In this document: piece after piece, positions 7,091 through 9,665 of the stretch
Layout: each line of letters opens with the position of its first letter
How positions within the stretch are numbered: the stretch's first letter is position 1
Assembly: GCA_002869145.1 (NCBI GenBank)
Contig: PKTM01000014.1
Span: forward strand, 1-36,848
DNA length: 36,848 nucleotides
Direction: 5' to 3'
Source: Denitrovibrio sp.
Lineage (GTDB): Bacteria; Chrysiogenota; Deferribacteres; Deferribacterales; Geovibrionaceae
Made by a program: the position numbers and the translations under genes
Notes under the pieces: generated by a model
Seen by the model: the letters and a program-made list of their open reading frames with translations, nothing else
What the model was told of the DNA's origin: nothing
Database searches by the model: none

Positions 7091-7128
7091 AAAAGGACAT
7101 AAAAGCTTTAAACCTTTATGCCCTTTTG
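7091..7128 (-). terminator. Rho-independent terminator of the HesB-like gene
   Basis: Read on the minus strand, AAAAGGGCATAAAGG pairs with GCTTTTATGTCCTTTT across a short A/T loop, with a few G-U pairs. The run of T residues expected after a terminator follows directly. It sits 16 bases beyond the stop codon of the HesB-like gene. The stem is A/T-rich in the middle but long. Confidence 0.75.
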
Positions 7129-7143
7129 TGGGTTTTATACTAA

Positions 7144-7455
7144 CTAACTACAGCCGCATCCGTTATCGCTGGATGATTCACCATCGGCGGGTCCGAGCAC
7201 AAAGCCTTCTCCACGCTCATCACTGATGAAATCCAAAAGCACACCTTCTGTATATGACATAAGACCGTCTGCAATGATAACTTCTACATCGTTAATAGTG
7301 TATGTTTTTTCGTGTTTTAACGGCTCATCCAGAGCCATTTTGAGTTGTGGACCACCTCAGCCTGCACCGTCAAGTACTATGCGGAGGTATTTACCCTCAT
7401 TCTGCTTTAGTACATCACGTAAAAGGCTGCTTGCGGTATCTGAAATCTGAAGCAT
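7144..7455 (-). CDS. HesB-like selenoprotein (IscA/ErpA-type fold, Sec33)
   Basis: A 103-residue protein if the in-frame TGA at 7357-7359 is read as selenocysteine. The ATG at 7455 has GGAAGGTGAG upstream, and the frame runs through LRIVLDGAG-U-GGPQLKMALDEP to a C-terminal NGCGCS. HesB/IscA proteins carry Cys in the loop that binds iron or an iron-sulfur cluster (G-x-GC-x-G). Here the first of those cysteines is encoded by TGA, and the C-terminal CxC pair is kept. HesB-like selenoproteins with the GUGG pattern are an established bacterial selenoprotein family. A hairpin with SECIS properties lies at the right distance. Conventional gene calling would give only the 64-residue tail from the ATG at 7338. 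The precise function is unknown; iron-sulfur or redox chemistry is likely. A terminator follows. Confidence 0.88.
7319..7339 (-). promoter_or_regulatory. Bacterial SECIS-like hairpin for Sec33
   Basis: In the mRNA, 17 bases after the UGA, AAUGGCUC pairs with GAGCCGUU (eight pairs, one G-U) around the five-base loop UGGAU. The loop begins 25 bases after the UGA and contains the GG expected near the apex of a bacterial SECIS. Distance and size fall in the accepted range for SelB recognition. The stem lies wholly within coding sequence. Confidence 0.7.
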
Positions 7456-7467
7456 ACTCACCTTCCT

Positions 7468-7489
7468 TATATATGTATTTACATATATA
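7468..7489. promoter_or_regulatory. Perfect palindrome upstream of the HesB-like gene
   Basis: The arms TATATATGTA and TACATATATA flank a two-base spacer, giving a 22-bp perfect palindrome. It ends 12 bases before the start codon of the HesB-like gene, just upstream of its ribosome site. Its position would overlap a core promoter or the very start of the mRNA. A dimeric repressor site is the simplest reading; the protein is unknown. Confidence 0.5.
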
Positions 7490-7589: not shown

Positions 7590-8480
7590 ATGCCAAAAAA
7601 AGTTAGACTGATAGGGATTCCTCTTGATTTGGGACAGGTTCACAGAGGTGTCAATATGGGACCTTCCGCAGTAAGATATGCCGGACTTGCGAAAAGGCTG
7701 AGACACATAGGCTATACCGTGAACGACATAGGAAACATCAATGTTCCCATAAGGGAAAAACTGCTTGAAGGGGTATATGAAAATGTTCTTCCGGCACTTC
7801 AGGAGGCCAGCCTCTGGATATATAACGCAGCAAAACAAGCTGTTGAGGATGAATGCATACCGATATTCATGGGCGGTGACCACTCTATCGCCATAGGGAC
7901 CATTGGCGGTATCACATCAGACACGAGGTGCGGAGTTATATGGATAGATGCCCACGGCGATTTTAACACTCCCGCCACTTCAAAATCCGGCAACATACAC
8001 GGCATGCCGCTTTCCATTCTGCTTGGAGATGGACACGAAGAGCTTGTAAACATAGGTCGGCCAGGTGCAAAACTGCGCCCGGAGGATGTTGTTCTGATAG
8101 GGCTGAGGGACTTGGACAAAGAGGAGCGGAACCTAATCAAACAAAGCGGTGTACATTATTTTACTATGAGAGATATTGACGAAAAAGGTATAAGCAGAGT
8201 TATGCAGGAGGTACTGAAATGCCTCGACCATCTGGATAAGATTCACATCAGTTTTGACGTGGACAGTCTTGACCCTATAGAGGCACCCGGAGTGGGGACA
8301 CCTGTTAAAGGCGGACTAAGCTACAGAGAGGCGCATCTTGCTATGGAGATAATAGCAGACAGCGGAAAGGTTTGCTCCATGGATATAGTAGAGATAAACC
8401 CGATGCTTGACATGTATAACAACACTGATGATATGGCTGTGGAGCTGACAGCGTCACTTTTCGGTAAAAGCATCATATAA
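7590..8480 (+). CDS. rocF: Arginase
   Basis: A 296-residue cytosolic enzyme of the ureohydrolase family that hydrolyses L-arginine to ornithine and urea at a binuclear manganese centre. The metal ligands are all present: GGDHS near residue 95, DAHGDFN near 120, and SFDVDSLDP near 230. [17 protein letters not shown] and the C-terminal [12 protein letters not shown] are the arginase (not agmatinase) type. The start is supported by AAGGGTGA upstream. The next gene encodes an ornithine cyclodeaminase of the archaeal/AgrE type, so the pair would take arginine to proline, urea and ammonia. No urease gene is in the window. Confidence 0.93.
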
Positions 8481-8564
8481 AACAGTGCGATTCATATTTA
8501 AATTTATAAAATGCTATAGTATGATTAAACTTAACATTCATAAACAAAACAAGGAGAATATAAG

Positions 8565-9665
8565 ATGAGTTTCAGTATCCCTAAATATATCGGACCAGAT
8601 TTTAACAAAGAACAACTCAAAGACTCTCCATGCGCAAAGACTGTTGCAGCAGAGATGGATGGTGTTGCACCGGACAATTTTCATGCAACATCGAACCACC
8701 CCGAGTATGTAAAGCTAGAAAGCGGAGATTGGGCTCTCACGGCAGACAGCAGGATGGACTGCACACTTGTTGTACGCGATGACAGGGTTGACGCTGTTGA
8801 GGCGAGAAACCTAAAAAAGGGCGATAAGGTCGTCGTTGGGCGTACTGAAAACGGTGAGGAAGGGATATATGTTCACACCGAAGGTTTTATCTACTCTGAT
8901 TCAAAATCAGCCGATAAATTCTCATTTCGCACAAGGGGCACAAGAGAAACTCCATTCTCCTACAGCTACGATTCGCTCTATGAACTACTGAAACACGACA
9001 GGGATCACGGACACATTTCATGGGTTTTAGGACCTGCGGTGGCCTTTGACAAAGACAGCAGAAGCGCAATGCAGGCACTGATAGAAAATGGTTACTGCCA
9101 CTCGCTCCTTGCAGGTAACGCTCTTGCCACACACGACCTTGAAGGGGGACACTTCCGCACAGGGCTCGGTCAGGACATATACGATCAGTCGCTGAAACCT
9201 CTTGGTCACTATAACCATCTGGATATACTGAATAAAGCACGCCGCTTCGGCTCGGTGAAACAGCTTATAAAAGAGCTGAATGTCGAGGACGGCATAATAT
9301 ATGCATGCGAAAAGCACGATATACCATACCTTTTGGCTGGTTCCATAAGAGACGACGGCCCCTTACCTGAAGTTATCCCGAATGTGTACGATGCTCAGGA
9401 TGCCATGAGAGCGCACGCCAAAGAGGCAACAATCGTTATAGCCATGGCAACACAGCTTCACACTATAGCCTACGGAAACATGACACCAAGCTACAGAGTT
9501 ATGCCAGACGGCACAATACGTCCGGTTTATTTCTATGTGGTTGATATGTCAGAATTCAGTGCAGACAAACTGGCAAACCGAGGCTCCGCACAGGCAAGCG
9601 CCATCCTTACAAATGTTCAGGATTTTATAGTAAACCTTTGGAACAATCTCGCTAAACAAAAATAA
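8565..9665 (+). CDS. Ornithine cyclodeaminase, AgrE/TIGR00300 (LOR/SDH-like) type
   Basis: A 366-residue protein of the TIGR00300 family, once called LOR/SDH bifunctional-like. It includes the archaeal ornithine cyclodeaminase and the C-terminal half of cyanobacterial AgrE. These enzymes use NAD+ to convert ornithine to proline and ammonia. Family signatures seen are LLAGNALATHDLEGGHF near residue 185, LLAGSIRDDGPLPEVI near 255, AMATQLHTIAYGNMTPS near 295 and DMSEFSADKLANRGSAQAS near 330. It lies 84 bases after arginase and has its own strong ribosome site (AAGGAGA). The neighbouring arginase supplies its substrate, which supports the cyclodeaminase call over other family functions. This fold is unrelated to the common mu-crystallin-like ornithine cyclodeaminase. 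Confidence 0.82.
   Translation: MSFSIPKYIGPDFNKEQLKDSPCAKTVAAEMDGVAPDNFHATSNHPEYVKLESGDWALTADSRMDCTLVVRDDRVDAVEARNLKKGDKVVVGRTENGEEGIYVHTEGFIYSDSKSADKFSFRTRGTRETPFSYSYDSLYELLKHDRDHGHISWVLGPAVAFDKDSRSAMQALIENGYCHSLLAGNALATHDLEGGHFRTGLGQDIYDQSLKPLGHYNHLDILNKARRFGSVKQLIKELNVEDGIIYACEKHDIPYLLAGSIRDDGPLPEVIPNVYDAQDAMRAHAKEATIVIAMATQLHTIAYGNMTPSYRVMPDGTIRPVYFYVVDMSEFSADKLANRGSAQASAILTNVQDFIVNLWNNLAKQK

Follow-up and report, generated by a model that had tools for sequence, protein, structure and literature searches.

An internal UGA predicted to encode selenocysteine in a divergent HesB-like gene of Denitrovibrio sp.

Introduction

Does the single UGA inside a short hesB-like gene of Denitrovibrio sp. 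end its translation, or does it specify selenocysteine (Sec), and what might the resulting selenoprotein do? The gene lies on contig PKTM01000014.1 (assembly GCA_002869145.1; contig 19 in our analysis numbering), and the 36,848-nucleotide stretch of this contig that was analysed is referred to here as the window. The host is an anaerobic bacterium, probably of the phylum Deferribacterota, and its genome measures 2.88 Mb and is 99.4% complete. HesB-like selenoproteins have been known as a family since at least 2005–2006 (PMC1088965, PMC1794560), and in the literature searched we found no description of a Deferribacterota branch. A preliminary description of the locus had proposed a HesB-like selenoprotein with a SECIS-like hairpin. 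Here, we assess this proposal from the gene and its product, the hairpin, the relatives, and the selenocysteine machinery of the host, and we consider the possible function of the protein.

The Gene and Its Product

Translation of the minus strand from 7455 to 7147, with TGA taken as a residue, gives MLQISDTASSLLRDVLKQNEGKYLRIVLDGAG-U-GGPQLKMALDEPLKHEKTYTINDVEVIIADGLMSYTEGVLLDFISDERGEGFVLGPADGESSSDNGCGCS, a product of 103 residues with one in-frame TGA, at codon 33, and with C100 and C102 in a C-terminal CGC. The residue at codon 33 is preceded by GAG and followed by GGPQL, and the UxGP motif is present as U33-G-G-P. The features of the locus are listed in Table 1. The preliminary description had read the TGA correctly as standing at the cluster-binding cysteine position of HesB/IscA proteins between these same flanks. 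Its span, 7319–7455, located the gene but reached from the start codon only as far as the hairpin, and the description did not name the minus strand. A plus-strand reading of the feature was rejected, as it yields no coding sense.

The gene looks monocistronic. Two terminator-like sites were found around it against 0.3 expected, the second being the SECIS stem itself when the other strand is read. On the plus strand, this stem (window 7322–7336) looks like an intrinsic terminator (GGCTCATCCAGAGCC ATTTT), a likeness that is likely a coincidence of the inverted repeat. Nearby on the plus strand, an arginase gene (7590–8480) adjoins a gene for a putative nickel-pincer-nucleotide-dependent ornithine cyclodeaminase (8565–9665; model NF052526), which together form a putative route from arginine to proline spanning 7590–9665.

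Table 1. Features of the hesB-like locus and window genes with a single in-frame stop
Feature	Coordinates	Strand	Remarks
hesB-like selenoprotein gene (predicted)	7144..7455	minus	ATG 7455–7453; 103 codons; stop TAG 7146–7144
In-frame UGA, predicted selenocysteine U33	7357..7359	minus	First cluster-ligand Cys position of IscA/HesB; TGA kept in relatives
Bacterial SECIS hairpin	7319..7339	minus	8 bp; 5-nt loop UGGAU; covariation in 16 Sec genes; fits published bSECIS model
Purine-rich ribosome-binding site AAGGAAGGT	7461..7469	minus	Directly upstream of ATG; assigned from sequence
Intrinsic-terminator-like hairpin, T-rich tail	7091..7127	minus	Downstream of hesB-like gene
ABC permease	212–1348	plus	One in-frame stop, TGA 1058
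Cache-GGDEF protein	24870–23314	minus	One in-frame stop, TAA 24384
NtrC-like regulator	27954–26569	minus	One in-frame stop, TAG 26901
Response regulator/histidine kinase	29812–27944	minus	One in-frame stop, TAA 28309

Family, Fold, and Phylogeny

The product matches two curated selenoprotein models, NF038090 (IscA_HesB_Se; E 6e-16, residues 1–101 of 103) and TIGR01911 (HesB_rel_seleno; E 2e-11), with 58.5 and 44.5 bits against curated cut-offs of 85 and 66.35, which are annotation thresholds and not biological features. All of the Deferribacterota relatives tested likewise score under the cut-offs of both models, and the Pfam model PF01521 gives 19.8 bits, below its gathering score of 26.3. 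With scores of this kind, truncated or missing annotation of the protein is to be expected, as had been anticipated; the protein does not, on the other hand, come from an unknown family, since the NCBIfam models exist.

A profile built from 25 members matches IscA, SufA, and HI1723 in the PDB. The AlphaFold model (pLDDT 87) has a fold that matches E. coli IscA (PDB 1s98, 1r94) with a TM-score of 0.72–0.78, and of 0.74–0.78 for 1s98 taken by itself, and the C-terminal tail carrying C100 and C102 falls below a pLDDT of 50. The ligand pattern of A-type carriers, C...CxC, is present as U33, C100, and C102, with Sec standing for the first cysteine; we take these three residues to be equivalent to the E. 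coli IscA ligands Cys-35, Cys-99, and Cys-101. In the phylogenetic tree, the Sec-containing members, together with two Cys-containing tandem copies, split from the Cys-containing A-type carriers with a branch support of 98/98, and the window gene pairs with that of a genome of the same genus (G002; 99/92). The hesB-like gene is a divergent new member of the already known HesB-like selenoprotein family.

Conservation of the UGA among Relatives

Among 59 relatives sampled, a clear homologue (42–49% identity) occurs in four Deferribacterota genomes, and all four carry TGA at the same codon. A sample of 385 genomes added HesB-like matches from other families that contain a single internal TGA, and in the distant loci that were read (L086–L097) this TGA invariably occupies the same position, ahead of GGP or SGP. 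Homologues lacking the TGA, for example in Methanosarcina, have Cys in the U33 column. Two genomes carry tandem HesB-like pairs of one Sec and one Cys copy (L094, 3941–4763; L090, 4001–4893), which provide a natural control for the interchange of the two residues.

Conservation extends beyond the TGA. Two Calditerrivibrio genes differ at 14 positions after it, 11 of them third codon positions (dN 0.035, dS 0.25), and on this comparison the downstream protein sequence is under purifying selection in the relatives. Apart from the two Calditerrivibrio loci, no conserved neighbourhood was found among the Sec loci, and the gene context therefore gives no function. A genome of the same genus (G001) has selA and lacks the hesB-like gene, which indicates that the gene is dispensable in the genus.

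The SECIS Hairpin

The hairpin, AAUGGCUC-UGGAU-GAGCCGUU, starts 17 nt past the UGA and has eight pairs, one of them G-U, as well as the GG-containing loop that had been noted at this distance in the preliminary description. The minimum-free-energy fold of the surrounding sequence includes it, with a z-score of -2.3 relative to dinucleotide-shuffled sequences. The published bSECIS model describes a loop of 3–9 nt, a stem of 4–16 bp, a G among the first two loop bases, a loop placed 16–37 nt after the UGA, and a minimum free energy of at most -7.5 kcal/mol (PMC13188914). The window hairpin agrees with this model throughout, having a loop of 5 nt, a stem of 8 bp, G at loop position 2, a loop 25 nt after the UGA, and an energy of -11.8 kcal/mol. 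When the region was recoded synonymously with the peptide fixed, an eight-pair stem of the right geometry arose in 0.4% of trials, and an equal or better energy in 3.5%. Taken alone, the hairpin is weak evidence that needs comparative support, because 250 of 9,392 TGA triplets (2.7%) in 237 kb of the genome are followed by a stem of at least 8 bp with SECIS geometry. Scanning the window with Rfam at gathering thresholds returned no match, so the hairpin was not confirmed by that route.

The comparative support came from 16 Sec genes, including the window gene, whose hairpin regions lie equally far from the UGA and give an ungapped alignment. Across this set, 90% of the cells of a five-pair core are paired, against 25–38% when the partners are slid; for the full eight pairs, the values are 76% and 23–43%. 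Two-sided changes occur at four of the five core pairs, as in GGUUC/GAACC and GGUGC/GCACC, and 14 of the 16 genes have at least five pairs around a five-base loop at the common offset. Within the tandem pair L090, the Cys paralogue (L090a) is down to one hairpin pair, compared with five in its TGA-containing sister (L090b). Since its position is conserved and its base pairs covary, the hairpin is not an accident of the sequence, and the relatives retain both features of the selenoprotein first proposed for this locus, the TGA and the hairpin.

Two loci, L088 (4001–4303) and L095 (4001–4336), have the TGA and no stem at the usual offset, their loop region (UUGAC or UGGAU) being unpaired. Their SECIS elements are possibly placed differently or are non-canonical.

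The Selenocysteine Machinery of the Host

The preliminary description had predicted that the organism would have selA, selB, selC, and selD, and had named absence of selB or selC as grounds for giving up its reading. All four are present. The selA gene (E 4e-132) adjoins selB, which scores above its curated cut-off, on contig 14 (here and below in our analysis numbering). On contig 10, selC is identified by Rfam as tRNA-Sec above the gathering score and by ARAGORN as tRNA-SeC(tca), with the anticodon UCA. Contig 10 also carries selD, which itself contains a single in-frame TGA in ...KAAG-U-AAKMGP...; this site presumably corresponds to the N-terminal Sec site of the selenoprotein forms of SelD.

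The genome also encodes IscU/NifU, and no SufBD core was found in it. No second A-type carrier was detected in the host genome either: NF038090 finds only the window gene, and the same model also detects carriers in E. coli and B. subtilis, which served as controls. A search of the host genome with PF01521 gave no match, this model being too strict to find even the hesB-like gene. The hesB-like gene thus appears to be the sole A-type-carrier homologue of the host.

How the UGA Is Read

Other genes of this assembly are also interrupted by single stops. Four in the window (Table 1) have a frame that is open on both sides of the stop, and ten 20-kb stretches sampled elsewhere in the genome (200 kb) contain about four similar genes, among them one for PBP1A (L112) with a TAA. 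These interruptions, which include all three kinds of stop, lend some plausibility to the explanation that the hesB gene is an ordinary one of the Cys type, dead or misread, whose TGA arose by nonsense mutation or sequencing error. The PBP1A stop is private to this genome, with no stop in 25 relatives and GAG or GAC as the codon in the four relatives read, whereas the hesB TGA is common to the four Deferribacterota homologues and to distant ones. The conserved, covarying hairpin that follows it and the purifying selection downstream in the relatives also speak against a dead gene. The shared TGA effectively refutes this explanation, to which we assign a very small probability. The other in-frame stops look like recent nonsense mutations or assembly base errors, and the mixture of stop codons speaks against recoding. 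Genome-wide recoding as the source of the hesB TGA was rejected on the same mixture of TAA, TAG, and TGA, and it is also contradicted by the private PBP1A stop and by the several window genes in which UGA is the normal terminator.

That the frame stays open when TGA is translated leaves the identity of the inserted amino acid unspecified, and the UGA could in principle be read as another amino acid, such as Cys or Trp, through near-cognate read-through or a changed code, independently of SelB and the hairpin. This, too, is highly improbable, given normal termination at UGA in the window, a host equipped with tRNA-Sec(UCA), SelA, SelB, and SelD, and a SECIS hairpin conserved with covariation. 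Reading of the UGA as selenocysteine is strongly supported because the four sel genes are present, the TGA is conserved, the SECIS covaries, and purifying selection acts on the sequence downstream of the TGA; on this sequence evidence, we consider that the internal UGA is almost certainly read as selenocysteine. As the presence of all the parts suggests, SelB carrying Sec-tRNA-Sec, the product of selC, would bind the hairpin 17 nt downstream when the ribosome reaches codon 33, and selenocysteine would be inserted instead of termination taking place.

Proposed Function and Comparison with Known Systems

The product is predicted to be a small protein with the A-type-carrier (IscA/HesB) fold. Sec would take the place of the first of three cluster-ligand cysteines, the other two lying in a flexible C-terminal tail. 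The protein would most likely bind an iron–sulfur (Fe-S) cluster or iron and hand it on under anaerobic conditions, possibly with a redox sensitivity that Sec tunes. Judging from the fold and the ligand pattern, a role as a carrier of Fe-S or metal, with a selenolate among its ligands, is probable. The main rival is a genuine selenoprotein with a thiol/selenol redox role, or one that binds another metal or metalloid, rather than carrying Fe-S; we regard it as the less likely of the two, though a serious candidate. The majority of selenoproteins that have yet to be characterised are believed to be redox-active or to bind ligands (PMC13188914), which would suit such a role, as would the tail, where the spacing of the CxC varies among the Sec members and some have one tail Cys only. 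Three-ligand cluster binding may accordingly not be general among the Sec members, to judge from their tails. The IscA fold and the position of Sec at a cluster ligand favour the carrier role instead, together with the nearly constant C-terminal Cys and the failure to find another A-type carrier in a genome that does encode IscU/NifU.

The A-type carriers IscA, SufA, and ErpA share fold, length, and ligand positions with the window protein, which is about 24% identical to them and differs in its Sec at the first Cys position and its location outside an isc/suf operon. The archaeal SECIS is of an archaeal type and is not located directly downstream of the UGA. An archaeal gene encodes the HesB-like selenoprotein of Methanococcus maripaludis, which is similar by description as the Sec form of a distant IscA relative; according to the section of PMC11097638 that cites the work, it was found by mutagenesis and 75Se labelling, and an unpublished observation quoted there, that nitrogen fixation was unaffected in the disruptant, fits the redox or other-metal role. 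The closest system is the HesB-like selenoprotein family itself (TIGR01911, NF038090; PMC1794560, PMC13188914), with which the window member has in common Sec at the HesB ligand position, the UGGP motif, a bacterial SECIS directly downstream, a length of about 100 residues, and hosts that are mostly anaerobic and have the Sec trait. It differs from this family in its scores below the cut-offs, its Deferribacterota branch, and its CGC tail.

Implications

Through this analysis, the HesB-like selenoproteins gain Deferribacterota members from a host context in which the Sec form is apparently the sole A-type carrier. Where curated models apply high cut-offs, such genes may go unannotated or be annotated in truncated form. 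The strongest form of the proposal holds that the cell has a single A-type carrier, and that this carrier is a selenoprotein whose selenolate ligates an Fe-S cluster. On present evidence this is unlikely; if true, the delivery of clusters to some targets would depend on selenium. A host with the Sec form as seemingly its only A-type carrier offers a clean test case for the role of the Sec form.
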